Source: Arenicola marina (taxonomy: Eukaryota > Annelida > Polychaeta > Arenicolidae). From it: DNA of 64,000 nucleotides. Location of the stretch: assembly GCA_964019135.1 (NCBI GenBank), contig OZ025263.1, positions 37,736,133 to 37,800,132 on the forward strand, in the 5' to 3' direction. Position 1 is the first letter of the stretch; each line of letters starts with the position of its first letter. Position numbers and translations under genes: made by a program. Shown here piece after piece: positions 36,351 to 64,000 of this stretch. The notes under the pieces are model-generated. The model saw nothing but the letters and a program-made list of their open reading frames with translations. It was not told the DNA's origin and did no database searches.

Positions 36351-38590
36351 CTTCATGGCCTCATTCAATGTCCAATGCTCACAGTCCCAGACTAGTTCAC
36401 TCCACCTTCATGGCCTCCTTCAATGTCCAATGCTCACTCTCCCAGACTAGTTCACTCCACCTTCGTGGCCTCATTCAATGTCCAATGCTCACTGTCACAG
36501 ACTAGTGAGCACACAGACTCCTTCAATGTCCAATGCTCACTGTCCTAGACTAGTTCAGTCTACCTTCATGGCCTGATTCAATGTCCAATGCTCACTGTCC
36601 CAGACTAGTTCACTCCACCTTCATGGCCTCCTTCAATGTCCAATGCTCACTGTCCTAGACTAGTTCAGTCTACCTTCATGGCCTGATTCAATGTCCAATG
36701 CTCACTGTCCCAGACTAGTTCACTCCACCTTCACGGCCTCATTCAATGTCCAATGCTCACTGTCCCAGACTAGTTCACTCCACCTTCATGGTCTCATTCA
36801 ATGTCCAATGCTCACTGTCCCAGACTAGTTCACTCCACCTTCATGGCCTCCTTCAATGTCCAATGCTCACTGTCCCAGACTAGTTTAGTCTACCTTCATG
36901 GCCTCATTCAATGTCCAGTGCTCAGTGTCCGAGACTAGTTTATTCTACCTTCATGGCCCCCTTTAATATCCAATGCTCACTGTCCCAGACTAGTTCACTC
37001 CACCTTGATGGCCTCCTTCAATGTCCAATGCTCACTGTCCCAGACTAGTTTAGTCTACCTTCATGGCCAGATTCAATGTCCAATGCTCACTGTCCCAGAC
37101 TAGTTCAGTCTACCTTCATGGCCAGATTCAATGTCCAATGCTCACTGTCCCAGACTAGTTCACTCCACCTTCATGGCCTCATTCAATGTCCAATGCTCAC
37201 TGTCCCAGACTAGTTCACTCCACCTTGATGGCCTCCTTCAATGTCCAATGCTCACTGTCCCAGACTAGTTTAGTCTACCTTCATGGCCTCTTTCAATGTC
37301 CAATGCTCACTGTCCCAGACTAGTTCAGTCTACCTTCATGGCCAGATTCAATGTCCAATGCTCACTGTCCCAGACTAGTTCACTCCACCTTCATGGCCTC
37401 ATTCAATGTCCAATGCTCATAGTCCCAGACTAGTTCACTCCACCTTCATGGCCTCTTTCAATGTCCAATGCTCACTGTCCCAGACTAGTTCACTCCACCT
37501 TCATGGCCTCATTCAATGTCCAATGCTCACTGTCCCATACTAGTTTAGTCTACCTTCATGGCCTCATTCAGTGTCCAATGCTCATAGTCCCAGACTAGTT
37601 CACTCCACCTTCATGGCCTCCTTCAATGTCCAATGCTCACTGTACCAGACTAGTTCACTCCACCTTCATGGCCTCCTACAAATGTCCAATGCTCACTGTC
37701 CCAGACTAGTTCACTCCACCTTCATGGCCTCATTCAATGTCCAATGCTCACTGTCCCAGACTAGTTCACTCCACCTTCATGGTCTCATTCAATGTCCAAT
37801 GCTCACTGTCCCAGACTAGTTCACTCCACCTTCATGGCCTCCTTCAATGTCCAATGCTCACTGTCCCAGACTAGTTTAGTCTACCTTCATGGCCTCATTC
37901 AATGTCCAGTGCTCAGTGTCCCAGACTAGTTTAGTCTACCTTCATGGCCCCCTTTAATATCCAATGCTCACTGTCCCAGACTAGTTCACTCCACCTTGAT
38001 GGCCTCCTTCAATGTCCAATGCTCTCTGTCCCAGACTAGTTTAGTCTACCTTCATGGCCTCTTTCAATGTCCAATGCTCACTGTCCCAGACTAGTTCAGT
38101 CTACCTTCATGGCCAGATTCAATGTCCAATGCTCACTGTCCCAGACTAGTTCACTCCACCTTCATGGCCTCATTCAATGTCCAATGCTCACTGTCCAAGA
38201 CTAGTTCACTCCACCTTGATGGCCTCCTTCAATGTCCAATGCTCACTGTCCCAGACTAGTTTAGTCTACCTTCATGGCCGCTTTCAATGTCCAATGCTCA
38301 CTGTCCCATACTAGTTTAGTCTACCTTCATGGCCTCATTCAATGTCCAATGCTCATAGTCCCAGACTAGTTCACTCCACCTTCATGGCCTCCTTCAATGT
38401 CCAATGCTCACTGTCCCAGACTAGTTCACTCCACCTTCATGGCCTCCTACAAATGTCCAATGCTCACTGTCCCAGACTAGTTCACTCCACCTTCATGGCC
38501 TCCTTCAATGTCCAATGCTCACTGTCCCAGACTAGTTCACTCCACCTTCATGGCCTCCTTCAATGTCCAATGCTCACTGTCCCAGACTAG
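22440..38590. repeat. 3.9-kb higher-order repeat in the 55-bp array
   Basis: Anchors recur at 3,949 bp (22862/26811, 33622/37571) and at 3,894 bp (31538/35432), a difference of one unit. The block includes an 82-codon look-alike ORF in which GGCCTCCTACAAATGTCC adds one base and fuses two frames (25001, 25992, 33622, 34613, 37571, 38342). It is nested within the 8.7-kb duplication. Confidence 0.75.
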
Positions 38591-38829
38591 TTCACTCCAC
38601 CTTCATGGCCTCCTTCAATGTCCAATGCTCACTGTCCCAGACTAGTTCACTCCACCTCCATGGCCTCATTCAATGTCCAATGCTCACTGTCCCAGACTAG
38701 TTCACTCCACCTTCATGGCCTCCTTCAATGTCCAATGTTCACTGTCCCATACTAGTTTAGTCTACCTTCATGGCCGCTTTCAATGTCCAATGCTCACTGT
38801 CCCAGACTAGTTCACTCCACCTTCATGGC

Positions 38830-39806
38830 CTCTTTCAATGTCCAATGCTCACTGTCCCAGACTAGTTCACTCCACCTTCATGGCCTCATTCAATGTCCAA
38901 TGCTCACTGTCCCAGACTAGTTCACTCCACCTTCATGGCCTCCTTCAATGTCCAGAACTCACTGTCCAGACTAGTTCACTCCACTTTAATGGCATCCTTC
39001 AATGTCCAATGCTCACTGTCCCATACTAGTTTAGCCTACCTTCATGGCCTCTTTCAATGTCCAATGCTCACTGTCCCAGACTAGTTCACTCCACCTTCAT
39101 GGCCTCTTTCAATGTCCAATGCTCACTGTCCCAGACTACTTCACTCCACCTTCATGGCCTCATTCAATGTCCAATGCTCACTGTCCCAGACTAGTTCACT
39201 CTACCTTCATGGCCTCATTCAATGTCCAATGCTCACTGTCCCATACTAGTTTAGCCTACCTTCATGGCCTCTTTCAATGTCCAATGCTCACTGTCCCAGA
39301 CTAGTTCACTCCACCTTCATGGCCTCTTTCAATGTCCAATGCTCACTGTCCCAGACTACTTCACTCCACCTTCATGGCCTCATTCAATGTCCAATGCTCA
39401 CTGTCCCAGACTAGTTCACTCCACCTTCATGGCCTCTTTCAATGTCCAATGCTCACTGTCCCAGACTAGTTCACTCCACCTTCATGGCCTCATTCAATGT
39501 CCAATGCTCACTGTCCCAGACTAGTTCACTCCACCTTCATGGCCTCCTTCAATGTCCAGAACTCACTGTCCAGACTAGTTCACTCCACTTTAATGGCATC
39601 CTTCAATGTCCAATGCTCACTGTCCCATACTAGTTTAGCCTACCTTCATGGCCTCTTTCAATGTCCAATGCTCACTGTCCCAGACTAGTTCACTCCACCT
39701 TCATGGCCTCTTTCAATGTCCAATGCTCACTGTCCCAGACTACTTCACTCCACCTTCATGGCCTCATTCAATGTCCAATGCTCACTGTCCCAGACTAGTT
39801 CACTCT
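38830..39806. repeat. 604-bp and 220-bp duplications at the exon-proximal end
   Basis: Anchors at 38838/39442, 38893/39497 and 39044/39648 are 604 bp apart. Inside, a 220-bp (four-unit) block repeats at 39044/39264. The units here share the rare TTTAGCCTACC and AGACTACTTC variants that are not seen elsewhere in the array. This suggests the newest expansions lie next to exon E. Confidence 0.8.
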
Positions 39807-39808
39807 AC

Positions 39809-39875
39809 CTTCATGGCTAGCTTGCATGACTTCTGCAGTTTGTCGACGAGGTCCGCGTGTTGCTCGGGTCCTCCC
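39809..39875 (-). CDS. AARSD1: AARSD1 exon E: HADLVDKLQKS helix; source of the 55-bp array
   Basis: This 67-bp exon has one base finishing Lys, then 22 codons. The acceptor is tctag (AG at 39877-39876) and the donor is AAG|gtagag (GT at 39808-39807). The peptide begins GGPEQHADLVDKLQKS and ends CKLAMK, matching the family helix with KKLQNSTK in human (recalled). The acceptor has a weak pyrimidine tract, but the phase (AA+G) and the alignment both support it. The last nine bases (codons for A, M, K) plus the donor are reiterated in every unit of the 55-bp array that begins here. Read-through would give K-V-E-stop. Confidence 0.87.
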
Positions 39876-42800
39876 CTAGACGAGACATAGTTCGGCGCTT
39901 AGTGTGTGTAATGTAGTATTGCATTCATATGGGTTTCTGACCAATAGTACATAATACAAGACCAGAATATCAAAGAGAAAACTTGCAATTTAACCATAAT
40001 TGATCATCCACATTATATCGATAGAGTAGGTCCAAGAGTGAATTTCAGTTATCAAAAGAGTATGGAAGTTGCATACATTTTTAATATATTTTTCCCATCC
40101 ATTCTAATTTTGTCTATACCTTTGCGATGCATGGCCTTTGGCAATAGTCAAGATGCAGTGTATACGCAGTGCTATACATATAGTAATCACTGATGCGTAT
40201 TTTAATGTGCATACAAATGGTTTGATATAATCTAGTGTATTTTTGGCCAAATGCTCACCAACAATGTTTTGCTCTTTTAGAAGAAAAATATCACCTATTA
40301 AATTTGCTGCTTCTTCAGCCATATTTGAGACACATTTGAGAACAAACAGAATTACTAAGAAGATTTACTTCAAGAAGCCTGTGAGCACCCGCTCCCGCTG
40401 GAGGCACTCGCCCAGGTGCGACAAGACCCGGTCTCCGGCCACGAACACCAAGTTGGCCTTTCCCTTTTTGCCCTTGTCCACAGCCAGCAGCTTCACGCAC
40501 TGGGGAAGAAAACAGGCGCTTTGCAGAACTGCTTTTGTCTTCACGATGTGTAACTGTACGAATATTAGTTTACCTTACGCACTTTAGTATTGTACCACGC
40601 AACAACAAAACATTTCTCATCAAAGGGGTCAAAGACTTTTATACAACAATCGATTACGTATTTGTAAACTATGGCCCACAATATGAGCCACTCTAAGCAA
40701 TTGTTCCAGCGTCAGCAGCGAGAATACACATAAACCTTAATCTAATCCCTACCTGCAGATGAGCCAGATTGGATACGTGAGTGCCACAGCACATGTTACA
40801 CTCAATGTCCTGGATGGTGACCACTCTAACGGGACCCACATGGTCGTCCGGCAACCCACGCGTCCGCACCTAAGCCAAAGACAACCAGAGCTCAGCACCG
40901 GATACCAAAGTCATGTGCACAGTTTACACGTCGTGTGGGGTCAAACGAGAGGGTCAACGCAGGATGGGGTGACATACCGCACCTCACCCAGCCCGGGGTC
41001 ATCGACGGCGTCGTACAGACTGATGGACAGGCCCTGTCTGATCCGTCCGATGACCCACCTCACCCAGCCCGGGGTCATCGACGGCGTCGTACAGACTGAT
41101 GGACAGGCCCTGTCTGATCCGTCCGATGACCCACCTCACCCAGCCCGGGGTCATCGACGGCGTCGTACAGACTGGGGTAGACAGACAGGCCCTGTCTGAT
41201 CCGTCCGATGACCCACCTCACCCAGCCAGGGGTCGTCGACGGCGTCGTACAGACTGATGGACAGGCCCTGTCTGATCCGTCCGATGACCCACCTCACCCA
41301 GCCCGGGGTCATCGACGGCGTCGTACAGACTGATGGACAGGCCCTGTCTGATCCGTCCGATGACCCACCTCACCCAGCCCGGGGTCATCGACGGCGTCGT
41401 ACAGACTGGGGTACACAGACAGGCCCTGTCTGATCCGTCCAATGACCCACCTCACCCAGCCCGGGGTCGTCGACGGCGTCGTACAGACTGGGGTACACAG
41501 ACAGGCCCTGTCTGATCCGTCCAGTGACCAACCTCACTCAGCCCGGGGTCATCGACGCCGTCGTACAGACTAGGGTACACAGACAGGCCCTGTCTGATCC
41601 GTCCGATGACCCACCTCACTCAGCCCGGGGTCATCGACGCCGTCGTACAGACTAGGGTACACAGACAGGCCCTGTCTGATCCGTCCGATGACCCACCTCA
41701 CTCAGCCCGGGGTCATCGACGCCGTCGTACAGACTAGGGTACACAGACAGGCCCTGTCTGATCCGTCCGATGACCCACCTCACTCAGCACGGGGTCATCG
41801 ACGCCGTCGTACAGACAAGGGTACACAGACAGGCCCTGTCTGATCCGTCCAGTGACCCACCTCACCCAGCCCGGGGTCATCGACGGCGTCGTACAGACTG
41901 ATGGACAGGCCCTGTCTGATCCGTCCGATGACCCACCTCACCGAGCCCGGGGTCATCGACGGCGTCGTACAGACTGGGGTACACAGACAGGCCCTGTCTG
42001 ATCCGTCCAATGACCCACCTCACCCAGCCCGGGGTCGTCGACGGCGTCGTACAGACTGGGGTACACAGACAGGCCCTGTCTGATCCGTCCAGTGACCAAC
42101 CTCACTCAGCCCGGGGTCATCGACGCCGTCGTACAGACTAGGGTACACAGACAGGCCCTGTCTGATCCGCTCATTGACCCACCTCACTCAGCCCGGGGTC
42201 ATCGACGCCGTCGTACAGACTAGGGTACACAGACAGGCCTTGTCTGATCCGCTCATTGAACCACCTCACTCAGCCCGGGGTCATCGACGCCGTCGTACAG
42301 ACTAGGGTACACAGACAGGCCCTGTCTGATCCGCTCATTGACCCACCTCACTCAGACCGGGGTCATCGACGCCGTCGTACAGACTGGGGTACACAGACAG
42401 GCCCTGTCTGATCCGTCCGATGACCCACCTCACTCAGCCCGGGGTCATCGACGCCGTCGTACAGACAGGGGTACACAGAGAGGCCCTGTCCGATCCGTCC
42501 AGTGACCCACCTCACTCAGCCCGGGGTCATCGACGCCGTCGTACAGACAGGGGTACACAGAGAGGCCCTGTCCGATCCGTCCAGTGACCCACCTCACTCA
42601 GCCCGGGGTCATCGACGCCGTCGTACAGACTGATGGACAGGCCCTGTCTGATCTGTCCAGTGACCCACCTCACTCAGCGCCGGGGTCATCGACGCCGTCG
42701 TACAGACTGGGGTAGACAGACAGGCCCTGCCTGATCCGCTCATTGACCCACCTCACTCAGCCCGGGGTCATCGACGCCGTCGTACAGACTGGGGTACACA

Positions 42801-45800
42801 GACAGGCCCTGTCTGATCCGTCCGATGACCCTCCTCACTCAGCCCGGGGTCATCGACGCCGTCGTACAGACTGGGGTACACAGACAGGCCCTGTCTGATC
42901 CGTCCGATGACCCACCTCACTCAGCCCGGGGTCATCGACGCCGTCGTACAGACAGGGGTACACAGAGAGGCCCTGTCCGATCCGTCCAGTGACCCACCTC
43001 ACTCAGCCCGGGGTCATCGACGCCGTCGTACAGACAGGGGTACACAGAGAGGCCCTGTCCGATCCGTCCAGTGACCCACCTCACTCAGCCCGGGGTCATC
43101 GACGCCGTCGTACAGACTGATGGACAGGCCCTGTCTGATCTGTCCAGTGACCCACCTCACTCAGCGCCGGGGTCATCGACGCCGTCGTACAGACTGGGGT
43201 AGACAGACAGGCCCTGCCTGATCCGCTCATTGACCCACCTCACTCAGCCCGGGGTCATCGACGCCGTCGTACAGACTAGGGTACACAGAGAGGCCCTGTC
43301 CGATCCGTCCAGTGACCCACCTCACTCAGCCCGGGGTCATCGACGCCGTCGTACAGACTAGGGTACACAGACAGGCCTTGTCTGATCCGCTCATTGAACC
43401 ACCTCACTCAGCCCGGGGTCATCGACGCCGTCGTACAGACTGGGGTACACAGACAGGCCCTGTCTGATCCGTCCAGTGACCAACCTCACTCAGCCCGGGG
43501 TCATCGACGCCGTCGTACAGACTAGGGTACACAGACAGGCCCTGTCTGATCCGTCCGATGACCCACCTCACTCAGCCCGGGGTCATCGACGCCGTCGTAC
43601 AGACTGGGGTACACAGACAGGCCCTGTCTGATCCGCTCATTGACCCACCTCACTCAGCCCGGGGTCATCGACGCCGTCGTACAGACAGGGTTACACAGAC
43701 AGGCCCTGTCTGATCTGTCCGATGACCCACCTCACTCAGCCCGGTGTCATCGACGCCGTCGTACAGACTAGGGTACACAGACAGGCCCTGTCTGATCCGC
43801 TCATTGACCCACCTCACTCAGCCCGGGGTCATCGACGCCGTCGTACAGACTAGGGTACACAGACAGGCCCTGTCTGATCCGCTCATTGACCCACCTCACC
43901 CAGCCCGGGGTCATCGACGCCGTCGTACAGACAGGGGTACACAGACAGGCCCTGTCTGATCCGCTCATTGACCCACCTCACTCAGCCCGGGGTCATCGAC
44001 GCCGTCGTACAGACAGGGTTACATAGACAGGCCCTGTCTGATCTGTCCGATGACCCACCTCACTCAGCCCGGGGTCATCGACGCCGTCGTACAGACTAGG
44101 GTACACAGACAGGCCCTGTCTGATCCGCTCATTGACCCACCTCACTCAGCCCGGGGTCATCGACGCCGTCGTACAGACTAGGGTACACAGACAGGCCCTG
44201 TCTGATCCGCTCATTGAACCACCTCACTCAGCCCGGGGTCATCGACGCCGTCGTACAGACTAGGGTACACAGACAGGCCCTGTCTGATCCGCTCATTGAC
44301 CCACCTCACTCAGCCCGGGGTCATCGACGCCGTCGTACAGACTAGGGTACACAGACAGGCCCTGTCTGATCCGCTCATTGACCCACCTCACCCAGCCCGG
44401 GGTCATCGACGCCGTCGTACAGACAGGGGTACACAGACAGGCCCTGTCTGATCCGCTCATTGACCCACCTCACTCAGCCCGGGGTCATCGACGCCGTCGT
44501 ACAGACAGGGTTACATAGACAGGCCCTGTCTGATCTGTCCGATGACCCACCTCACTCAGCCCGGGGTCATCGACGCCGTCGTACAGACTAGGGTACACAG
44601 ACAGGCCCTGTCTGATCCGCTCATTGACCCACCTCACTCAGCCCGGGGTCATCGACGCCGTCGTACAGACTAGGGTACACAGACAGGCCCTGTCTGATCC
44701 GCTCATTGAACCACCTCACTCAGCCCGGGGTCATCGACGCCGTCGTACAGACTAGGGTACACAGACAGGCCCTGTCTGATCCGCTCATTGACCCACCTCA
44801 CTCAGCCCGGGGTCATCGACGCCGTCGTACAGACAGGGTTACATAGACAGGCCCTGTCTGATCTGTCCGATGACCCACCTCACTCAGCCCGGGGTCATCG
44901 ACGCCGTCGTACAGACTAGGGTACACAGACAGGCCCTGTCTGATCCGCTCATTGACCCACCTCACTCAGCCCGGGGTCATCGACGCCGTCGTACAGACTA
45001 GGGTACACAGACAGGCCCTGTCTGATCCGCTCATTGAACCACCTCACTCAGCCCGGGGTCATCGACGCCGTCGTACAGACTGGGGTACACAGACAGGCCC
45101 TGTCTGATCCGTCCAGTGACCAACCTCACCCAGCCCGGGGTCATCGACGCCGTCGTACAGACAGGGGTACACAGACAGGCCCTGTCTGATCCGCTCATTG
45201 ACCCACCTCACTCAGCCCGGGGTCATCGACGCCGTCGTACAGACAGGGTTACATAGACAGGCCCTGTCTGATCTGTCCGATGACCCACCTCACTCAGCCC
45301 GGGGTCATCGACGCCGTCGTACAGACTAGGGTACACAGACAGGCCCTGTCTGATCCGCTCATTGACCCACCTCACTCAGCCCGGGGTCATCGACGCCGTC
45401 GTACAGACTAGGGTACACAGACAGGCCCTGTCTGATCCGCTCATTGAACCACCTCACTCAGCCCGGGGTCATCGACGCCGTCGTACAGACTGGGGTACAC
45501 AGACAGGCCCTGTCTGATCCGTCCAGTGACCAACCTCACTCAGCCCGGGGTCATCGACGCCGTCGTACAGACTGGGGTACACAGACAGGCCCAGTCTGAT
45601 CCGTCCGATGACCCACCTCACTCAGCCCGGGGTCATCGACGCCGTCGTACAGACTGGGGTACACAGACAGGCCCTGTCTGATCCGTCCAGTGACCCACCT
45701 CACTCAGCCCGGGGTCGTCGACGCCGTCGTACAGACTGGGGTACACAGACAGGCCCTGTCTGATCCGTCCAGTGACCCACCTCACTCAGCCCGGGGTCGT

Positions 45801-48800
45801 CGACGCCGTCGTACAGACTGGGGTACACAGACAGGCCCTGTCTGATCCGTCCAGTGACCCACCTCACTCAGCCCGGGGTCATCGACGCCGTCGTACAGAC
45901 AGGGGTACACAGACAGGCCCTGTCTGATCCGTCCAGTGACCCACCTCACTCAGCCCGGGGTCATCGACGCCGTCGTACAGACTGGGGTACACAGACAGGC
46001 CCTGTCTGATCCGTCCAGTGACCCACCTCACTCAGTCCGGGGTCATCGACGCCGTCGTACAGACTAGGGTACACAGACAGGCCCTGTCTGATCCGTCCGA
46101 TGACCCACCTCACTCAGCTCGGTGTCATCGACGCCGTCGTACAGACTGGGGTACACAGACAGGCCCTGTCTGATCCGTCCGATGACCCACCTCACTCAGC
46201 CCGGGGTCATCGACGCCGTCGTACAGACAGGGGTACACAGACAGGCCCTGTCTGATCCGCCCAGTGACCCACCTCACTCAGCCCGGTGTCATCGACGCCG
46301 TCGTACAGACAGGGGTACACAGACAGGCCCTGTCTGATCCGCCCAGTGACCCACCTCACCCAGCCCGGGGTCATCAACGCCGTCGTACAGACTGGGGTAC
46401 ACAGACAGGCCCTGTCTGATCCGTCCGATGACCCACCTCACTCAGCTCGGTGTCATCGACGCCGTCGTACAGACTGGGGTACACAGACAGGCCCTGTCTG
46501 ATCCGTCCGATGACCCACCTCACTCAGCCCGGGGTCATCGACGCCGTCGTACAGACAGGGGTACACAGAGAGGCCCTGTCTGATCCGTCCAGTGACCCAC
46601 CTCACTCAGCTCGGGGTCATCGACGCCGTCGTACAGACTGGGGTACACAGACAGGCCCTGTCTGATCCGTCCGATGACCCACCTCACTCAGCTCGGTGTC
46701 ATCGACGCCGTCGTACAGACTAGGGTACACAGACAGGCCCTGTCTGATCCGTCCGATGACCCACCTCACTCAGTCCGGGGTCATCGACGCCGTCGTACAG
46801 ACTGGGGTACACAGACAGGCCCTGTCTGATCCGTCCGATGACCCACCTCACTCAGTCCGGGGTCATCGACGCCGTCGTACAGACTGGGGTACACAGACAG
46901 GCCCTGTCTGATCCGTCCGATGACCCACCTCACTCAGCTCGGTGTCATCGACGCCGTCGTACAGACTGGGGTACACAGACAGGCCCTGTCTGATCCGTCC
47001 GATGACCCACCTCACTCAGTCCGGGGTCATCGACGCCGTCGTACAGACTGGGGTACACAGACAGGCCCTGTCTGATCCGCCCAGTGACCCACCTCACTCA
47101 GCCCGGGGTCATCGACGCCGTCGTACAGACTGGGGTACACAGACAGGCCCTGTCTGATCCGCCCAGTGACCCACCTCACTCAGCCCGGGGTCATCGACGC
47201 CGTCGTACAGACTGGGGTACACAGACAGGCCCTGTCTGATCCGTCCGATGACCCACCTCACTCAGCCCGGGGTCATCGACGCCGTCGTACAGACTAGGGT
47301 ACACAGACAGGCCCTGTCTGATCCGTCCGATGACCCACCTCACTCAGTCCGGGGTCATCGACGCCGTCGTACAGACTGGGGTACACAGACAGGCCCTGTC
47401 TGATCCGTCCGATGACCCACCTCACTCAGCCCGGGGTCATCGACGCCGTCGTACAGACTAGGGTACACAGACAGGCCCTGTCTGATCCGTCCGATGACCC
47501 ACCTCACTCAGTCCGGGGTCATCGACGCCGTCGTACAGACTGGGGTACACAGACAGGCCCTGTCTGATCCGTCCGATGACCCACCTCACTCAGTCCGGGG
47601 TCATCGACGCCGTCGTACAGACTGGGGTACACAGACAGGCCCTGTCTGATCCGTCCGATGACCCACCTCACTCAGTCCGGGGTCATCGACGCCGTCGTAC
47701 AGACTGGGGTACACAGACAGGCCCTGTCTGATCCGTCCGATGACCCACCTCACTCAGTCCGGGGTCATCGACGCCGTCGTACAGACTGGGGTACACAGAC
47801 AGGCCCTGTCTGATCCGCCCAGTGACCCACCTCACTCAGCCCGGGGTCATCGACGCCGTCGTACAGACTGGGGTACACAGACAGGCCCTGTCTGATCCGC
47901 CCAGTGACCCACCTCACTCAGCCCGGGGTCATCGACGCCGTCGTACAGACTGGGGTACACAGACAGGCCCTGTCTGATCCGCCCAGTGACCCACCTCACT
48001 CAGCCCGGGGTCATCGACGCCGTCGTACAGACTGGGGTACACAGACAGGCCCTGTCTGATCTGTCCGATGACCCACCTCACTCAGCCCGGGGTCATCGAC
48101 GCCGTCGTACAGACTGGGGTACACAGACAGGCCCTGTCTGATCCGTCCAGTGACCCACCTCACTCAGCCCGGGGTCATCAACGCCGTCGTACAGACTGGG
48201 GTACACAGACAGGCCCTGTCTGATCTGTCCGATGACCCACCTCACTCAGCCCGGGGTTATCGACGCCGTCGTACAGACTGGGGTACACAGACAGGCCCTG
48301 TCTGATCCGTCCGATGACCCACCTCACTCAGCCCGGGGTCATCGACGCCGTCGTACAGACTGGGGTACACAGACAGGCCTTGTCTGATCCGTCCGATGAC
48401 CCACCTCACTCAGCTCGGGGTTATCGACGCCGTCGTACAGACTGGGGTACACAGACAGGCCCTGTCTGATCCGCTCATTGACCCACCTCACTCAGCCCGG
48501 TGTCATCAACGCCGTCGTACAGACTGGGGTACACAGACAGGCCCTGTCTGATCCGTCCGATGACCCACCTCACTCAGCCCGGGGTCATCGACGCCGTCGT
48601 ACAGACTGGGGTACACAGACAGGCCTTGTCTGATCCGTCCGATGACCCACCTCACTCAGCCCGGGGTTATCGACGCCGTCGTACAGACAGGGGGACACAG
48701 ACAGGCCCTGTCTGATCCGTCCGATGACCCACCTCACTCAGCCCGGGGTCATCGACGCCGTCGCACAGACTGGGGTACACAGACAGGCCCTGTCTGATCT

Positions 48801-51800
48801 GTCCGATGACGCACCTCACTCAGCCCGGGGTCATCGACGCCGTCGTACAGACTGGGGTACACAGACAGGCCCTGTCTGATCCGCCCAGTGACCCACCTCA
48901 CTCAGCCCGGGGTCATCAACGCCGTCGTACAGACTGGGGTACACAGACAGGCCCTGTCTGATCCGTCCGATGACCCACCTCACTCAGCCCGGGGTCATCG
49001 ACGCCGTCGTACAGACTAGGGTACACAGACAGGCCCTGTCTGATCCGTCCGATGACCCACCTCACTCAGTCCGGGGTCATCGACGCCGTCGTACAGACAG
49101 GGGTACACAGACAGGCCCTGTCTGATCCGTCCGATGACCCACCTCACTCAGCTCGGTGTCATCGACGCCGTCGTACAGACTGGGGTACACAGACAGGCCC
49201 TGTCTGATCCGCCCAGTGACCCACCTCACTCAGCCCGGGGTCATCAACGCCGTCGTACAGACTGGGGTACACAGACAGGCCCTGTCTGATCCGTCCGATG
49301 ACCCACCTCACTCAGCCCGGGGTCATCGACGCCGTCGTACAGACTAGGGTACACAGACAGGCCCTGTCTGATCCGTCCGATGACCCACCTCACTCAGTCC
49401 GGGGTCATCGACGCCGTCGTACAGACTGGGGTACACAGACAGGCCCTGTCTGATCCGTCCGATGACCCACCTCACTCAGTCCGGGGTCATCGACGCCGTC
49501 GTACAGACTGGGGTACACAGACAGGCCCTGTCTGATCCGTCCGATGACCCACCTCACTCAGCCCGGGGTCATCGACGCCGTCGTACAGACTGGGGTACAC
49601 AGACAGGCCCTGTCTGATCCGCCCAGTGACCCACCTCACTCAGCCCGGGGTCATCGACGCCGTCGTACAGACTGGGGTACACAGACAGGCCCTGTCTGAT
49701 CCGCCCAGTGACCCACCTCACTCAGCCCGGGGTCATCGACGCCGTTGTACAGACTGGGGTACACAGACAGGCCCTGTCTGATCCGTCCAGTGACCCACCT
49801 CACTCAGTCCGGGGTCATCGACGCCGTCGTACAGACTGGGGTACACAGACAGGCCCTGTCTGATCCGCTCATTGACCCACCTCACTCAGCCCGGGGTCAT
49901 CGACGCCGTCGTACAGACAGGGGTACACAGACAGGCCCTGTCTGATCCGCCCAGTGACCCACCTCACTCAGCCCGGGGTCATCAACGCCGTCGTACAGAC
50001 TGGGGTACACAGACAGGCCCTGTCTGATCCGTCCAGTGACCCACCTCACTCAGTCCGGGGTCATCGACGCCGTCGTACAGACTGGGGTACACAGACAGGC
50101 CCTGTCTGATCCGCCCAGTGACCCACCTCACTCAGCCCGGGGTCATCAACGCCGTCGTACAGACTGGGGTACACAGACAGGCCCTGTCTGATCCGTCCGA
50201 TGACCCACCTCACTCAGCCCGGGGTCATCGACGCCGTCGTACAGACTAGGGTACACAGACAGGCCCTGTCTGATCCGTCCGATGACCCACCTCACTCAGT
50301 CCGGGGTCATCGACGCCGTCGTACAGACTGGGGTACACAGACAGGCCCTGTCTGATCCGTCCGATGACCCACCTCACTCAGTCCGGGGTCATCGACGCCG
50401 TCGTACAGACTAGGGTACACAGACAGGCCCTGTCTGATCCGTCCAGTGACCCACCTCACTCAGCCCAGGGTCATCGACGCCGTCGTACAGACTAGGGTAC
50501 ACAGACAGGCCCTGTCTGATCCGTCCAGTGACCCACCTCACTCAGCCCAGGGTCATCGACGCCGTCGTACAGACTGGGGTACACAGACAGGCCCTGTCTG
50601 ATCCGCCCAGTGACCCACCTCACTCAGCCCGGTGTCATCGACGCCGTCGTACAGACTGGGGTACACAGACAGGCCCTGTCTGATCCGTCCGATGACCCAC
50701 CTCACTCAGCTCGGTGTCATCGACGCCGTCGTACAGACAGGGGTACACAGACAGGCCCTGTCTGATCCGCCCAGTGACCCACCTCACTCAGCCCGGGGTC
50801 ATCGACGCCGTCGTACAGACTGGGGTACACAGACAGGCCCTGTCTGATCCGCCCAGTGACCCACCTCACTCAGCCCGGGGTCATCGACGCCGTCGTACAG
50901 ACTGGGGTACACAGACAGGCCCTGTCTGATCCGCCCAGTGACCCACCTCACTCAGCCCGGGGTCATCGACGCCGTTGTACAGACTGGGGTACACAGACAG
51001 GCCCTGTCTGATCCGTCCAGTGACCCACCTCACTCAGTCCGGGGTCATCGACGCCGTTGTACAGACTTCGGTACACAGACAGGCCCAGTCTGATCCGTCC
51101 GATGACCCACCTCACTCAGCCCGGGGTCATCGACGCCGTCGTACAGACTGGGGTACACAGACAGGCCTTGTCTGATCCGCTCATTGACCCACCTCACTCA
51201 GCCCGGGGTCATCGACGCCGTCGTACAGACTGGGGTACACAGACAGGCCTTGTCTGATCCGCTCATTGACCCACCTCACTCAGCCCGGGGTCATCGACGC
51301 CGTCGTACAGACTAGGGTACACAGACAGGCCCTGTCTGATCCGTCCGATGACCCACCTCACTCAGCCCGGGGTCATCGACGCCGTCGTACAGACTAGGGT
51401 ACACAGACAGGCCTTGTCTGATCCGCTCATTGACCCACCTCACTCAGCCCGGGGTCATCGACGCCGTCGTACAGACTGGGGTACACAGACAGGCCTTGTC
51501 TGATCCGCTCATTGACCCACCTCACTCAGCCCGGGGTCATCGACGCCGTCGTACAGACTGGGGTACACAGACAGGCCCTGTCTGATCCGTCCAGTGACCC
51601 ACCTCACTCAGCCCGGGGTCATCGACGCCGTCGTACAGACTGGGGTACACAGACAGGCCCTGTCTGATCCGTCCAGTGACCCACCTCACTCAGCGCCGGG
51701 GTCATCGACGCCGTCGTACAGACAGGGGTACACAGACAGGCCTTGTCTGATCCGCTCATTGACCCACCTCACTCAGCCCGGGGTCATCGACGCCGTCGTA

Positions 51801-54800
51801 CAGACTGGGGTACACAGACAGGCCCTGTCTGATCCGCTCATTGACCCACCTCACTCAGCCCGGGGTCATCGACGCCGTCGTACAGACTGGGGTACACAGA
51901 CAGGCCCTGTCTGATCCGTCCGATGACCCACCTCAATCAGCCCGGTGTCATCGACGCCGTCGTACAGACTGGGGTACACAGACCGGCCTTGTCTGATCCG
52001 TCCGATGACCCACCTCACTCAGCCCGGGGTCATCAACGCCGTCGTACAGACTGGGGTACACAGACAGGCCCTGTCTGATCCGTCCAGTGACCCACCTCAC
52101 TCAGCCCGGGGTCATCGACGCCGTCGTACAGACTAGGGTACACAGACAGGCCCTGCCTGATCCGCTCATTGACCATGTCGTCCAACCGACGTAGCTCCTC
52201 CTCGGACATGGATGGGGCGTCCAACTCGATGAAGGAGGTTTTGGCTCCTAAACTCCTGTTGTCAAAACAAGAAAATACAAAGAGGTCAGATATATAACTG
52301 AAACGATTCTATTCATATACACCACACAATCAGCACCAGTGGCCTACCTACATCGACTGTCTTCTACGTCTTCAAATACAACACCAAGAGGCGGACACCA
52401 GTGGGCCTACCCCATACCACAACTACTGTCTTCAAATACACCAAGAGGCGGAGACCAGCGGGCCTACCGTATACCACAACTACTGTCTTCAAATACACCA
52501 AGAGGTGGACACCAGTGGGCCTACCCCACACCACAACTACTGTCTTCAAATACACCAAGAGGTGAGAACCAGTGGGCCTACCCTATACCACAACTACTGT
52601 CTTCAAATACACCAAGACGTAAGAACCAGTGGGCCTACCCCGTACCACAACTACTGTCTTCAAATACACCAAGAGGTGAGAACCAGTGGGCCTACCCTAT
52701 ACCACAACTACTGTCTTCAAATACACCAAGAAGTAAGAACCAGTGGGCCTACCGTATACCACAACTACTGTCTTCAAATACACCAAGAGGTGGACACCAG
52801 TGGGCCTACCCTATACCACAACTACTGTCTTCAAATACACCAAGAGGTGAGAACCAGTGGGCCTACCCTATACCACAACTACTGTCTTCAAATACACCAA
52901 GAGGTGGACACCAGTGGGCCTACCCTATACCACAACTACTGTCTTCAAATACACCAAGAAGTAAGAACCAGTGGGCCTACCCTATACCACAACTACTGTC
53001 TTCAAATACACCAAGAGGTGGACACCAGTGGACCTACCCTATACCACAACTACTGTCTTCAAATACACCAAGAGGTGGACACCAGTGGGCCTACCCTATA
53101 CCACAACTACTGTCTTCAAATACACAAAGAGGTGAGAACCAGTGGGCCTACCCCATACCACAACTACTGTCTTCAAATACACCAAGAGGCGGAAACCAGT
53201 GGGCCTACCCCATACCACAACTACTGTCTTCAAATACACCAAGAGGCGGACACCAGTGGGCCTACCCTATACCACAACTACTGTCTTCAAATACACCAAG
53301 AGGTGGACACCAGTGGGCCTACCCTATACCACAACTACTGTCTTCAAATACACCAAGAGGTGGACACCAGTGGACCTACCCTATACCACAACTACTGTCT
53401 TCAAATACACCCAGAGGCGGACACCAGTGGGCCTACCCTATACCACAACTACTGTCTTCAAATACACCAAGAGGTGGACACCAGTGGACCTACCCTATAC
53501 CACAACTACTGTCTTCAAATACACAAAGAGGTGAGAACCAGTGGGCCTACCCCATACCACAACTACTGTCTTCAAATACACCAAGAGGCGGAAACCAGTG
53601 GGCCTACCCCATACCACAACTACTGTCTTCAAATACACCAAGAGGCGGACACCAGAGGGCCTACCCTATACCACAACTACTGTCTTCAAATACACCAAGA
53701 GGTGGACACCAGTGGGCCTACCCTATACCACAACTACTGTCTTCAAATACACCAAGAGGTGGACACCAGTGGGCCTACCCTATACCACAACTACTGTCTT
53801 CAAATACACGAAGAGGTGGACACCAGTGGGCCTACCCCATACCACAACTACTGTCTTCAAATACACAAAGAGGTGAGAACCAGTGGGCCTACCCCATACC
53901 ACAACTACTGTCTTCAAATACACCAAGAGGCGGAAACCAGTGGGCCTACCCTATACCACAACTACTGTCTTCAAATACACCAAGAGGTGGACACCAGTGG
54001 ACCTACCCTATACCACAACTACTGTCTTCAAATACACCCAGAGGCGGACACCAGTGGGCCTACCCTATACCACAACTACTGTCTTCAAATACACCAAGAG
54101 GTGGACACCAGTGGACCTACCCTATACCACAACTACTGTCTTCAAATACACAAAGAGGTGAGAACCAGTGGGCCTACCCCATACCACAACTACTGTCTTC
54201 AAATACACCAAGAGGCGGAAACCAGTGGGCCTACCCCATACCACAACTACTGTCTTCAAATACACCAAGAGGCGGACACCAGTGGGCCTACCCTATACCA
54301 CAACTACTGTCTTCAAATACACCAAGAGGTGGACACCAGTGGGCCTACCCTATACCACAACTACTGTCTTCAAATACACCAAAAGGTGAGAACCAGTGGG
54401 CCTACCCTATACCACAACTACTGTCTTCAAATACACCAAGAGGCGGAAACCAGTGGGCCTACCCTATACCACAACTACTGTCTTCAAATACACCAAGAGG
54501 TGGACACCAGTGGGCCTACCCTATACCACAACTACTGTCTTCAAATACACCAAGAGGTGAGAACCAGTGGGCCTACCCCATACCACAACTACTGTCTTCA
54601 AATACACCAAGAGGCGGAAACCAGTAGGCCTACCCTATACCACAACTACTGTCTTCAAATACACCAAGAGGCGGAAACCAGTGGGCCTACCTTATACCAC
54701 AACTACTGTCTTCAAATACACCAAGAGGTGGACACCAGTGGGCCTACCCTATACCACAACTACTGTCTTCAAATACACCAAGAGGTGGACACCAGTGGGC

Positions 54801-56551
54801 CTACCCTATACCACAACTACTGTCTTCAAATATACAAAGAGGTGAGAACCAGTGGACCTACCCTATACCACAACTACTGTCTTCAAATACACCAAGAGGT
54901 GAGAACCAGTGGGCCTACTCCATACCACAACTACTGTCTTCAAATACACCAAGAGGTGGACACCAGCGGGCCTACCCTATACCACAACTACTGTCTTCAA
55001 ATACACCCAGAGGTGGACACCAGTGGGCCTACCCTATACCACAACTACTGTCTTCAAATACACAAAGAGGTGGACACCAGTGGGCCTACGCTATACCACA
55101 ACTACTGTCTTTAAATACACCAAGAGGTGGACACCAGTGGGCCTACCCTATATCACAACTACTGTCTTCAAATACACCAAGAGGTGGACACCAGTGGGCC
55201 TACCCTATACCACAACTAGTGCCTTCAAATACACCAAGAGGTGGACACCAGTGGGCCTACCCTATACCACAACTGTCTTCAAATACACCAAGAGGTGGAC
55301 ACCAGTGGGCCTACCCTATACCACAACTACTGTCTTCAAATACACCAAGAAGTAAGAACCAGTGGGCCTACCCCGTACCACAACTACTGTCTTCAAATAC
55401 ACCAAGAGGTGGACACCAGTGGACCTACCCTATACCACAACCACTGTCTTCAAATACACCAAGAGGTGGGCAACAGTGGGCCTACCCTATACCACAACTA
55501 CTGTCTTCAAATACACCAAGAGGTGGACACCAGTGGGCCTACCCTATACCACAACTACTGTCTTCAAATACACCAAGAGGTGGACACCAGTGGGCCTACC
55601 CTATACCACAACTACTGTCTTCAAATACACCAAGAGGTGGACACCAGTGGACCTACCCTATACCACAACTACTGTCTTCAAATACACCAAGAGGTGGGCA
55701 ACAGTGGGCCTACCCCATACCACAACTACTGTCTTCAAATACACCAAGAGGTGGACACCAGCGGGCCTACCCTGTACCACAACTTCTGTCTTCAAATACA
55801 CCCAGAGGTGGACACCAGTGGGCCTACCCTATACCACAACTACTGTCTTCAAATACACAAAGAGGTGGACACCAGTGGGCCTACCCTATACCACAACTAC
55901 TGTCTTTAAATACACCAAGAGGTGGACACCAGTGGGCCTACCCTATACCACAACTACTGTCGTCAAATACACCAAGAGGTGGACACCAGTGGGCCTACCC
56001 TATACCACAACCACTGTCTTCAAATACACCAAGAGGTGGACACCAGTGGACCTACCCTATACCACAACTACTGTCTTCAAATACACCAACAGGTGGGCAA
56101 CAGTGGGCCTACCCTACACCACAACTACTGTCTTCAAATACACCAAGAGGTGGACACCAGTGGGCCTACCCTATACCACAACTACTGTCTTCAAATACAC
56201 CAAGAAGTGGGCAACAGTGGGCCTACCCTATACCACAACTACTGTCTTCAAATACACCAAGAAGTGGGCAACAGTGGGCCTACCCTATACCACAACTACT
56301 GTCTTCAAATACACCAAGAAGTGGGCAACAGTGGGCCTACCAGTGGGCCTACGAAATAATAACTGTAGATGCAACCGGGCAAAAACAATTACATCCAATA
56401 CCCATGTCTCGCTCAACAATGAAATAAATTAATGTGAAGTGAATTCAAGTTAGCTTAGGCAATGACAAGGTATGACAAGAAAGCAAAACTTACCACGAAG
56501 TAGTTACATAACCAAAAGTTGCATCCGCAATTGCAGTCACCAAATGCTGGC
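39809..56551 (-). CDS. AARSD1: AARSD1 alanyl-tRNA editing protein, internal part (five exons)
   Basis: Five minus-strand exons (56551-56494, 52255-52096, 40869-40753, 40499-40369, 39875-39809) join in one frame into about 177 codons. The product aligns in order with the middle of animal AARSD1, which is about 410 residues in human as I recall. Seen in sequence: QHLVTA followed by TTSW, IELDAPSM, RGLPDDHVGPVRVV, the zinc motif CCGTH, then VKLLAVDKGKK and NLVFVAGDRVL. Known for the family: AlaX-type proteins hydrolyse mischarged Ser- or Gly-tRNA(Ala) in trans, using a zinc held by HxxxH and CxxxH motifs, and act outside the synthetase. All borders are GT-AG and the phases agree at all four joins. 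The 5' exons (start codon, first zinc His) lie beyond 64000 and the 3' exons lie left of 1. Apart from the window truncation, no frameshift or stop is seen, so the gene looks intact. The oddity is the introns, which are filled with minisatellites. Confidence 0.93.
39876..40368 (-). other. Intron between exons D and E, unique sequence
   Basis: This 493-bp AT-rich stretch contains no tandem repeat. It starts gtaaat after exon D and ends tctag before exon E. It holds one minus-strand open frame of 72 codons (40322-40104), described separately. I see no other recognisable element. Confidence 0.85.
40104..40322 (-). other. 72-codon open frame in the exon D-E intron, doubtful
   Basis: The frame starts MAEEAANLIGDIFLLKEQ and ends at a stop after GHASQRYRQN. 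The middle (VITICIALRIHCILTIA) is hydrophobic enough to be a membrane segment. I do not recognise a family. It lies wholly inside the intron and on the gene's strand. It could be chance in AT-rich DNA, a cryptic exon, or a relic of a transposon protein. Nothing else supports translation. Confidence 0.12.
40369..40499 (-). CDS. AARSD1: AARSD1 exon D: KGKK...NLVFVAGDRVL
   Basis: This exon is 131 bp: 43 codons plus two bases (AA) of a Lys codon finished by exon E. The acceptor is a strong pyrimidine tract, ttttcttccccag (AG at 40501-40500), and the donor is AA|gtaaat (GT at 40368-40367). The peptide runs CVKLLAVDKGKKGKANLVF, then VAGDRVL, and ends RVLTGFL. It corresponds to the human segment around IKILGTEKGKK and NLIFLSGNRVL (recalled). 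The exon is GC-rich against AT-rich flanking introns. An overlapping minus-strand frame (MREAAG...) is only a shadow of this exon. Confidence 0.93.
40500..40752 (-). other. Intron between exons C and D, unique sequence
   Basis: This 253-bp intron has donor gtaggg, a possible branch site in aaactaatatt (around 40570), and a strong terminal pyrimidine tract before ccccag. It is one of only two introns in the window free of minisatellite, and so shows the likely ancestral intron size. Confidence 0.88.
40753..40869 (-). CDS. AARSD1: AARSD1 exon C: second zinc motif CCGTH
   Basis: This exon has exactly 39 codons and is phase 0 at both ends. The acceptor is cttag (AG at 40871-40870), preceded by the pyrimidine-rich ctctggttgtctttgg; the donor is CAG|gtaggg (GT at 40752-40751). 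The protein opens with VRTRGLPDDHVGPVRVV and ends HVSNLAHLQ. The CxxxH zinc ligands are Cys at 40791-40789 and His at 40779-40777, within CCGTH. It is the most strongly conserved block of AARSD1 and the surest identification in the window. It lies 112 bp from the edge of the 82-bp array. Confidence 0.95.
40870..40981 (-). other. Unique 3' end of the exon B-C intron
   Basis: About 112 bp lie between the 82-bp array and the exon C acceptor. They contain the pyrimidine-rich run ending ttggcttag. This short unique tail holds the only acceptor of the intron that leads to exon C. Confidence 0.8.
40982..42120. repeat. Diverged distal end of the 82-bp array with 76-bp units
   Basis: Units farthest from exon B differ together from the rest. 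On the plus strand they have CTCACCCAGCCC (elsewhere CTCACTCAG) and gacggcgtc (elsewhere gacgccgtc). Several have the six-base-shorter form ACAGACTGATGGACAGG (about 41025, 41095, 41257, 41331, 41899; also 42629 and 43118). Roughly 41218-41520 repeats again near 41800-42090. These look like the oldest or a separately homogenised group. Confidence 0.75.
40982..52173. repeat. 82-bp minisatellite (about 136 units) derived from the 3' end of exon B
   Basis: On the minus strand the unit starts GTCAATGAGCGGATCAG, passes through GGGCCTGTCTGTGTAC and CGTCGATGACCCCGGG, and ends CTGAGTGAGgtgg. Its first 78 bases equal the last 26 codons of exon B (VNERIRQGLSV to DDPGLSE) and the last four are the start of the intron. 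Exon B positions 52173-52096 are thus unit one. Every unit repeats the donor GAG|gtgggt. Variants: GTCATCGGAC or GTCACTGGAC in place of GTCAATGAGC, and 76-bp units missing six bases. The plus-strand ORFs of 60-106 codons here (SSTPSYRLGYTDRPC...) are antisense of the exon copy. Confidence 0.97.
52096..52255 (-). CDS. AARSD1: AARSD1 exon B: IELDAPSM helix region; source of the 82-bp array
   Basis: This exon is 160 bp: one base finishing Trp plus 53 codons. The acceptor is aacag (AG at 52257-52256) and the donor is gtgggt, following codon GAG at 52098-52096. The protein starts SLGAKTSFIELDAPSM, continues MVNERIRQGLSV and ends DDPGLSE, matching the family stretch between the two zinc motifs. The last 78 bases (52173-52096, 26 codons from VNER to LSE) are themselves the first unit of the 82-bp tandem array that fills the next intron. 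If splicing skips this donor, reading runs on through VGH and hits TGA about 22 codons later, so use of the first donor is needed for a functional protein. Confidence 0.92.
52251..56352. repeat. 57-bp minisatellite (about 70 units) in the exon A-B intron
   Basis: The plus-strand unit is made of ACTACTGTCTTCAAATACAC, CAAGAGGTGGACACCAGTGG and GCCTACCCTATACCACA, 57 bp. Regular units run from about 52370; 52251-52370 holds diverged units that reach exon B. Near the exon, AACTCCTGTTGTC followed by AAAATACAAAGAGGTC resembles the unit's AACTACTGTCTTC then AAATACACCAAGAGGT. The unit therefore appears to carry a copy of the exon B acceptor (minus: TTTGAAGACAG|TAGTT beside TTTGACAACAG|GAGTT). Since 57 is 19 codons, all frames stay open; ORFs up to 869 codons on the plus strand are a by-product. 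Confidence 0.93.
56353..56493 (-). other. Unique 5' end of the exon A-B intron
   Basis: About 140 bp of AT-rich intron lie between the exon A donor gtaagt and the last 57-bp unit. I see no repeat or gene in it. It shows that the 57-bp array is separated from the 5' splice site, in contrast to the 55-bp and 82-bp arrays. Confidence 0.8.
56494..56551 (-). CDS. AARSD1: AARSD1 exon A: second zinc His, QHL...TTSW
   Basis: This 58-bp exon starts after acceptor cgcag (AG at 56553-56552) and ends before donor gtaagt (GT at 56493-56492). It begins with two bases that complete a glycine codon, then has 18 full codons, starting QHLVTAIAD and ending VTTS. It ends with TG, which joins the first G of exon B to make the Trp of the TTSW signature. 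The His codon at 56546-56544 is the second ligand of the HxxxH zinc motif (HSGQH in relatives), so the first His must lie in the upstream exon outside the window. The 39-bp minisatellite starts 33 bp upstream of the acceptor. Confidence 0.93.
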
Positions 56552-57486: not shown

Positions 57487-57999
57487 ACCTGTGTGTGGCC
57501 CTGCCTGTGTGTGACCCTGCCTGTGTGTGACCCTGCCTGTGTGTGACCCTGTCTGTGTGTGGCCCTGCCTGTGTGTGACCCTGCCTGTGCGTGACCCTGC
57601 CTGTGTGTGACCCTGTCTGTGTGTGGCCCTGCCTGTGTGTGACCCTGCCTGTGTGTGGCCCTGCCTGTGTGTGACCCTGCCTGTGCGTGACCCTGCCTGT
57701 GTGTGACCCTGTCTGTGTGTGGCCCTGCCTGTGTGTGACCCTGCCTGTGTGTGGCCCTGCCTGTGTGTGACCCTGCCTGTGTGTGGCCCTGACTGTGTGT
57801 GGCCCTGCCTGTGTGTGGCCCTGCCTGTGTGTGACCCTGCCTGTGTGTGGCCCTGCCTGTGTGTGGCCCTGCCAGTGTGTGACCCTGCCTGTGTGCGGCC
57901 CTGCCTGTGTGTGACCCTGCCAGTGTGTGGCCCTGCCTGTGTGTGACCCTGCCTGTGTGTGACCCTGCCTGTGTGTGACCCTGCCTGTGCGTTGCACTG

Positions 58000-58830
58000 C
58001 TTGTGTGTGGCCCTGCCTGTGTGTGGCCCTGCCTGTGTGGCCCTGCCTGTGTGTGGCCCCACCTGTGTGCGGTCCTGCCAGTGTGTGGCCCTGCCTGTGA
58101 GTGCCCCTGCCTGTGTGTGGCCCTACTTGTGGGTTGCCCTGCCTGTGTGTGGCCCTGCCTGTGTGTGGCCCTGCCTGTGTGTGACCCTGCCTGTGTGTGG
58201 CCCTGCCTGTGTGTGGCCCTGCCTGTGTGTGACCCTGCCTGTGTGTGGCCCTGTCTGTGTGTGGCCCTGCCTGTGTGTGGCCCTGCCTGTGCGTTGCCCT
58301 GCCTGTGTGTGGCCCTGCCTGTGTGTGGCCCTGCTTGTGTGTGGCCCTACCTGTGTGGCCCTGCCTGTGTGCGGCCCTGCTTGTGTGTGGCCCTGCCTGT
58401 GTGTGGCCCTGCCTGTGTGTGGCCCTGCCTGTGTGTGGTCCTGCCTGTGTGTGGTCCTGCCTGTGTGTGGCCCTGCCTGTGTGTGGCCCTGCCTGTGTGT
58501 GACCCTGCTATTGTGTGGCCCTGCCTGTGTGTGACCCTGCCTGTGTGTGACCCTGCCTGTGTGTGACCCTGCCTGTGCGTTGCCCTGCCTGTGTGTGGCC
58601 CTGTCTGTGTGTGGCCCTGCCTGTGTGTGGCCCTGCCTGTGTGGCCCTGCCTGTGTGTGGCCCTACCTGTGTGCGGCCCTGCCTGTGTGTGGCCCTGCCT
58701 GTGTGTGGCCCTGGCTGTGTGTGGCCCTGCCTGTGTGTGGCCCCACCTGTGTGCGGCCCTGCCAGTGTGTGGCCCTGCCTGTGAGTGCCCCTGCCTGTGT
58801 GTGGCCCTGCTTGTGGGTTGCCCTGCCTGT
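58000..58830. repeat. 684-bp duplication in the 16-bp array
   Basis: The rare unit pair gtgagtgcccc then gtgggttgccctg occurs at 58097/58131 and again at 58781/58815, both 684 bp apart. The variants GTGGCCCCACCTGTGTGCGG and CCAGTGTGTGG stand just before them in both places. Only this anchor region was compared; other units nearby differ, so the copies have since diverged. Confidence 0.65.
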
Positions 58831-60099
58831 GTGTGGCCCTGCCTGTGTGTGGCCCTGCATGTGTTTGGCCCTGCCTGTGTGTGGCCCTGCCTGTGTGTGG
58901 CCCTGCATGTGTTTGGCCCTGCCTGTGTGTGGCCCTGCCTGTGTGTGCCCCTGCCTGTGTGTGGCCCTACCTGTGTGTGGCCCTGCCTGTGTGTGGCCCT
59001 GCTTGTGCGTTGCCCTGCCTGTGTGTGGCCCTGCCTGTGTGTGGCCCTACCTGTGTGTTGCCCTGCCTGTGTGTGGCCCTACCTGTGTGTGGCCCTACCT
59101 GTGTGTGGCCCTGCCTGTGTGTGACCCTGCCTGTGTGTGGCCTGCCTGTGTGCGGCCCTGCATGTGTGTGGCCCTGCCTGTGTGTGACCCTGCCTGTGTG
59201 TGGCCCTACCTGTGTGCGGCCCTGCCTGTGTGTGGCCCTGCCTGTGTGTGGCCTGCCTGTGTGTGACCCTGCCTGTGTGTGGCCTGCCTGTGTGCGGCCC
59301 TGCATGTGTGTGGCCCTGCCTGTGTGTGACCCTGCCTGTGTGTGGCCCTACCTGTGTGCGGCCCTGCCTGTGTGTGGCCCTGCCTGTGTGTGGCCTGCCT
59401 GTGTGTGGCCCTGCCTGTGTGTGGCCCTGCCTGTGTGTGACCTGCCTGTGTGTGGCCTGCCTGTGTGTAGCCTGCCTGTGTGTGGCCCTGCCTGTGTGTG
59501 GCCCTGCCTGTGTGCGGCCCTGCCTGTGTGCGGCCCTGCCTGTGTGTGGCCTGCCTGTGTGTGGCCCTGCCTGTGTGTGGCCTGCCTGTGTGTGGCCCTG
59601 CCTGTGTGCGGCCCTGCCTGTGTGTGGCCCTGCCTGTGTGTGGCCCTGCCTGTGTGTGGCCCTGCCTGTGTGTGGCCTGCCTGTGTGTGGCCTGCCTGTG
59701 TGTGGCCTGCCTGTGTGTGGCCTGCCTGTGTGTGGCCCTGCCTGTGTGTGGCCTGCCTGTGTGTGGCCCTGCCTGTGTGTGGCCCTGCCTGTGTGTGGCC
59801 TGCCTGTGTGTGGCCCTGCCTGTGTGTGGCCTGCCTGTGTGTGGCCCTGCCTGTGTGTGGCCTTGCCTGTGTGCGGCCCTGCCTGTGTGTGGCCCTGCCT
59901 GTGTGTGGCCCTGCCTGTGTGTGGCCTGCCTGTGTGTGGCCCTGCCTGTGTTTGGCCTGCCTGTGTGTGGCCTGCCTGTGTGTGGCCCTGCCTGTGTGCG
60001 GCCCTGCCTGTGTGTGGCCTGCCTGTGTGTGGCCCTGCCTGTGTGTGGCCCTGCCTGTGTGTGGCCCTGCCTGTGTGCGGCCCTGCCTGTGTGTGGCCC

Positions 60100-63900: not shown

Positions 63901-64000
63901 GTGTGTGGCCTGCCTGTGTGTGGCCCTGCCTGTGTGTGGCCTGCCTGTGTGTGGCCTGCCTGTGTGTGGCCCTGCCTGTGTGTGGCCCTGCCTGTGTGTG

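Follow-up and report, generated by a model that had tools for sequence, protein, structure and literature searches.

An 82-bp minisatellite made of the end of an exon and its donor site in the AARSD1 gene of an annelid, a probable counterpart of the lancelet 'mirages'

Repeats that extend across exon-intron borders were named 'mirages' in the Adh3 gene of the lancelet (PMC3087553). In lancelet globin genes mirages occupy both 5' and 3' borders, BflGb6 being represented by haplotypes with six and three units, and splicing is undisturbed as far as tested (PMC3087553); others occur in PGBD5 and troponin C (PMC3902484), and the edges of the repeat clusters are described as exempt from homogenisation (PMC3087553, PMC3902484). 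Here, an array of 82-bp units behind exon B of AARSD1 was investigated in an annelid. The array lies in the window C18:37736133-37800132, the whole stretch of 64,000 nucleotides (nt) that was analysed, in an assembly of 867 Mb and 762 contigs. An initial annotation, made from the DNA letters of this window, had described the array as an exon tail copied into its own intron.

Judged by its anatomy, the exon B array is of the same kind as the lancelet mirages, with the annelid host and the scale apparently new. Like the mirages, it consists of tandem units of minisatellite length (82 bp, 136 copies), the unit spans the exon-intron boundary with the true exon as the edge unit, and a splice signal is present in most copies (GAG/GTGGGT in 122 of 136, GT in 135 of 136; the slash denotes the exon-intron border). 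The open AARSD1 frame across the junction is consistent with another trait of mirages, normal splicing despite the copies. Mirages are further marked by unstable length, in the soma or between haplotypes; the AARSD1 copy numbers come from a single assembly. Unlike the published cases, as far as the accessible text of those papers extends, the host is an annelid: the closest named match to COX1 of the mitochondrial contig C762 was Pilargis wolfi at 91%, the next named matches were annelids, and AARSD1 grouped with Capitella. By COX1 the host belongs close to Pilargidae, and it is probably a member of Phyllodocida. A lancelet as host was ruled out by the AARSD1 matches, the AARSD1 tree and COX1. 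Also in contrast to the three and six units reported for BflGb6, there are 136 copies at exon B and ~1037 and ~480 at two other AARSD1 donors, and several boundaries of one gene are affected, which differs from the mirages described in those parts of the sources. These data show that boundary-spanning minisatellites are not confined to lancelets; no annelid mirage case was found in the open-licence literature.

Two other systems are related. In the Rogers model and later cases, as outlined in the accessible part of PMC3087553, introns are gained by tandem duplication of exon sequence; coding sequence is likewise tandemly duplicated beside a splice signal in AARSD1, but the model places a new intron between the copies, whereas in AARSD1 an intron already present has grown through copying of its own edge. 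Intron 1 of earthworm metallothionein contains a long minisatellite in an annelid gene (PMC12783039), for which, unlike AARSD1, the accessible text describes no copying of exon or splice site into the array. There was no occurrence of satellites or intron length in PMC11371463.

The gene that holds the 82-bp array is AARSD1, encoding an alanyl-tRNA editing protein (tRNA proofreading). The assembled join comprises 13 exons, with GT-AG at 12 of 12 introns and an open frame of 415 amino acids, and extends over ~125 kb (window coordinates 94409 to -30933). Most exons were located by tblastn with a human AARSD1 probe sequence; exon E, which was missed by this probe, and one 18-nt exon were placed by eye, both fit the open join, and exon E was also located by orthologue alignment. 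The product matched named AARSD1 proteins of many animals, the best being those of Lineus (61%) and Lingula (60%). Of the protein families, tRNA_SAD is present, while the match to tRNA-synt_2c falls under the family cut-off. The window protein grouped with Capitella with support of 96/87 in a single-gene tree in which Annelida was not recovered as a clade. A genome-wide protein search gave 132 scored AARSD1 matches, all on C18 37705202-37813358 and mostly array units, and no second AARSD1 copy was among these 132 (101 of 147 first-look candidates scored).

Tandem Repeats Finder (TRF) called an array with a period of 82 bp and 136.9 copies (40980-52164). Splitting at the donor gave 136 tandem units directly after exon B (52095-40983), counted between the exon donor at 52096/52095 and the last donor at 40983/40982: 126 of 82 bp, seven of 76 bp and three of 83 bp. 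This confirms the array described in the initial annotation. Each 82-bp unit consists of GTGG and a copy of the last 78 nt of exon B, the coding sequence having been amplified together with its donor site, as the initial annotation had stated. The same annotation equated the unit exactly with the last 26 codons plus gtgg; composition and length were as described, but one base differs: all 126 of the 82-bp units have A at site 22, where the exon has G, and none of them is identical to the exon tail. When these units were aligned to exon B, as had been recommended, identity to the tail averaged 72.5/78 (best 77, worst 68), and because only 6 of the 22 nt upstream of the repeated part agree with the array, the similarity ends at the unit boundary. 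A tail of 30 nt from exon B found 133 copies in the intron at 80% or above, the best at 30/30, against a best of 18 in a shuffled control (30 tails).

There were 63 distinct units among the 136, and a unit tree had few variable sites to draw on. Differences between units were 4.41 at lag 1, 5.75 overall and 6.94 at lag 100, and this slow rise with distance would fit tandem turnover. The ten most exon-like units are found at 45370-42182, the closest of all at 45370, far from the exon, and the exon-like block AATGAGCGG was present in 31 of 136 units. The far end of the array reads GAG/GTGCGGTATGTC, and its GAGGTG joined to the exon's GGTCAATG reproduces the unit junction exactly. The far end keeps a donor context of its own, GAG/GTGCGGTATG, as would follow if growth of the array had displaced the original start of the intron to this point, and the unrepeated remainder of the intron is probably that start.

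The donor GAG/gtgggt, first thought to be the same in each unit, was found at 122 of the 136 unit ends (GAGGTGGGT, identical to that of the exon); the 14 variants were six GTGGTT, five GTTGGT, one GTGCGT, one GTGCGG (the last unit) and one without GT. With human donor frequencies, the commonest unit donor scored the same as the exon's own (4.9). The 9-nt donor window was not specially uniform, 32 of 82 circular windows being as uniform or more so, and we read the donors in the units as neither purged nor specially kept. The protein junction between exons B and C (...VDDPGLSE/VRTRGLPDDH...) was crossed without a gap by every one of the 24 orthologues that were aligned, a selection from 120 listed; an orthologous exon ending elsewhere, which would have spoken against the initial annotation, was not seen among them. 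Together with the open 13-exon join, this upholds the true exon as the outermost unit, and an end of exon B at 52096 is supported. Use of an inner donor would put an in-frame stop into the longer exon B in 136 of 136 cases, the outermost donor must therefore be the productive one, and we infer that this first donor is the one used in splicing. A single pre-mRNA would thus contain 137 donors. Counting that of the exon, 123 share the same nine bases, and an intact protein results only from use of the outermost one. Some splicing rules give preference to donors lying closer to the 3' splice site, and the AARSD1 array is a natural test of splice-site choice among equals, in which exon definition may be compared with such rules.

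Two further AARSD1 donors, those of exon E and exon 2, are followed by arrays that begin within the exon tail (Table 1). The 9-nt tail of exon E occurs in the 55-bp array at 929 places with 8-9 of 9 positions matched. Donor copies in the 16-bp array behind exon 2 read CAGGCA at 403 places and CAGGTA at 24, and are mostly GC where the exon keeps GT, unlike those of the 82-bp array. Only four of 1240 coding 9-mers were as frequent as the tail of exon E in its intron, and six of 1240 for exon 2; the equivalent numbers for 12-mers were 18 and five of 1237. Because these copy counts stand out, and because the edge of the array lies inside both tails, it is probable that the exon E tail was copied into the 55-bp array, and the data are suggestive of the same for exon 2 and the 16-bp array. 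Exon-tail copies were absent from the other nine AARSD1 donors by shuffled-tail and 9-mer tests, and exon-head copies from all 12 acceptors by shuffle and k-mer tests. A candidate acceptor array at exon 2, with 38-bp units that stop 5 nt before the exon, was dropped as exon-head copies were absent.

Arrays at exon boundaries were also detected in a second gene. TCP1/CCT coding stretches were found by family search, and 24 were matched by hidden Markov models (one at locus L027, four at L029, six each at L030 and L031, four at L032 and three at L033), of which neighbours may share an exon; the loci were picked by place and size, not randomly, which makes an estimate of frequency impossible, and exon ends were read by eye. 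Four boundary arrays were located around these stretches, two at donors and two at acceptors, all in one gene which we take to be CCT7 (L033 1987-2201 with L034; L029 1-449, 873-1039 and 2179-2750). Adjoining the 68-bp acceptor array is a 36-bp array of 31 copies with TTCTAGAGACATCTTG (L035 1-1112), by its appearance an earlier array of this acceptor that has since eroded.

Taken as a whole, the exon B array was very probably generated by a duplication that spanned the boundary and was then expanded, a 'mirage'-type repeat in an annelid whose genome is rich in minisatellites. The simplest route would begin with a single, short tandem duplication across the donor of exon B, of an 82-bp segment comprising 79 nt of exon end and 3 nt of intron start, followed by expansion. 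The outermost copy would still present a whole exon and a good donor, leaving the mRNA unchanged and the duplication tolerated. Slippage or unequal exchange may then have carried the array to 136 units. These would be free to drift, whereas protein selection would continue to act on the exon copy at the edge, and splicing would be expected to use the first donor. Orthologues across animals share the protein sequence of the exon, and the exon is therefore older; it is the source of the copies, which did not give rise to it. Several observations weigh against this account. Other units resemble the exon more closely than the one adjoining it does (72/78), from which it would follow that the exon is held by selection while the units turn over. 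At the other two donors, the best intron match of the exon 2 tail was no better than that of shuffled tails (11 against 11 over 12 nt, 12 against 13 over 15 nt), and the exon E tail was barely above them (11 against 10 and 13 against 12, respectively).

A wider reading, which we put forward tentatively and consider rather less likely than its opposite, is that introns of this annelid lineage grow to a large extent by way of boundary-spanning arrays, which would be seeded at donors as well as acceptors, with the exonic part eroding with age and the introns ending as stacks of decayed splice-site copies. The exon share per unit, 78 nt in the 82-bp unit and then ~9 nt in the 55-bp and 16-bp units, could be read as such an age series. 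If this were true, many introns would each contain splice sites of nearly equal quality by the tens or hundreds, and splicing in this animal would follow the first-donor rule to a strong and measurable degree.

An alternative to the duplication account as given is that arrays in this genome arise preferentially at exon boundaries, breaks at structures linked to transcription or splicing being one conceivable cause. Up to three of 12 AARSD1 intron arrays cross the donor, and the four boundary arrays of one CCT gene, one of them beside the apparent older acceptor array, would agree with this. However, seeds placed randomly on the non-array remainder of the introns gave an expectation of 1.39 donor-crossing arrays in 12, a rough null based on TRF edges, which shorten the 82-bp array slightly, and the Poisson chance of three or more is ~0.16 (hand calculation). 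Three, or two, such arrays are unremarkable against this value and a targeting mechanism is therefore not needed. Moreover, none of the 12 AARSD1 acceptors has exon-head copies, and the 24 CCT stretches yielded four arrays in a single gene, at loci not randomly picked; we consider favoured boundaries unlikely. Still less probable is a functional donor array, in which the inner donors or units would either allow the intron to be removed in steps (recursive splicing) or act as micro-exons under regulation, an acceptor-like CCCCAG lying 36-37 nt before each donor. An AG is found at sites 44-45 in 105 of 126 82-bp units, behind a stretch with 10-12 pyrimidines in 17, and 122 of 136 donors are intact; yet the donor is no more uniform than 32 of the 82 windows, so that selection for its retention is not indicated, a micro-exon of this sort would add an in-frame TGA behind exon B, and every longer exon B meets a stop. 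Inflation of a short duplication by misassembly is very improbable since, although long arrays are difficult to assemble and the copy numbers come from one assembly, 63 of the 136 units are distinct, 76- and 83-bp variants occur, and arrays at other boundaries of two genes have quite different units.

Table 1. Exons and tandem arrays of AARSD1 and boundary arrays of the CCT gene (positions in window coordinates; slash, exon-intron border).
Feature	Position	Strand	Description	Basis
55-bp array	3..39817	minus	Starts within exon E tail, to -17053 left of window; ~1037 copies, 57 kb; commonest donor copy AAG/GTGGAG	
Exon E	39809..39875	minus	Ends GCCATGAAG/GTAGAG	Open join, orthologue alignment
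Exon D	40369..40499	minus		tblastn probe, open join
Exon C	40753..40869	minus		tblastn probe, open join, orthologue alignment
Unrepeated rest of intron	40870..40982	minus	Starts GTGCGGTATG after last GAG	
82-bp array	40983..52095	minus	136 units; 11,113 of 11,226 nt of intron (hand sum of unit lengths), all but 113 nt	TRF, donor splitting
Repeated part of exon B	52096..52173	minus	Last 26 codons	Unit splitting, exon-unit alignment
Exon B	52096..52255	minus	160 nt; acceptor ACAACAG, donor GAG/GTGGGT at 52096/52095	Open join, GT-AG, orthologue alignment
57-bp array, intron A-B	52364..56341	minus	No exon copy found	TRF
Exon A	56494..56551	minus	Boundary array absent	tblastn probe, open join
16-bp array	57488..64000 in window	minus	Starts within exon 2 tail, on to 65022 (L003); ~480 copies; commonest CACACACAG/GCAGGG, last CACACAG/GTAGTACTG	
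Exon 2	65015-65156, right of window	minus	Ends CAACACACAG/GTAGGG	
CCT donor array			66 bp, 24 nt exon tail, at least 21.5 copies (stretch ends); GAG/GTGAGT in 19/19 matched copies, exon included	
CCT donor array			82-90 bp, 43 nt exon tail, 7 copies including exon	
CCT acceptor array			68 bp, 7 copies of TTCCAG/AGACATG... including exon	
CCT 34-bp array			~5 copies, ends at acceptor, copies stretch of exon interior	

The window is nearly all tandem arrays (within it, by TRF, 55 bp x 726, 82 bp x 137, 57 bp x 70, 39 bp x 16 and 16 bp x 416), with the minus-strand AARSD1 exons sitting between them. Arrays make up 85% of AARSD1 as a whole and 95% of the part between exon 1 and exon H. In a genome sample of 14 stretches of 10 kb, the positions of which were fixed before inspection (15 were requested, one of which did not exist), 57,065 of 140,000 bases (41%) were in TRF arrays.

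The end of AARSD1 exon G (L006, near 3188) reads GAG/GTGGGTCAC. These 12 nt recur at the junction within the 82-bp unit behind exon B, a match probably due to chance. A 38-bp array is interrupted at L003 ~2754-2907 by a stretch with a tRNA-like GGGTTCGAATCC box, by eye probably a tRNA-derived short interspersed nuclear element. Elsewhere in the assembly, kinase matches on contigs C443, C465, C504, C330 and C652 contain in-frame TAA and TAG but no TGA, and these contigs look like contamination from an organism, perhaps a ciliate, in which stop codons have been reassigned. One chromosome, C3, carries 70 (hand count) of the 122 listed kinase matches, most of them with an uninterrupted frame of ~280-340 amino acids, and these would appear to form a large local or retrocopied family.

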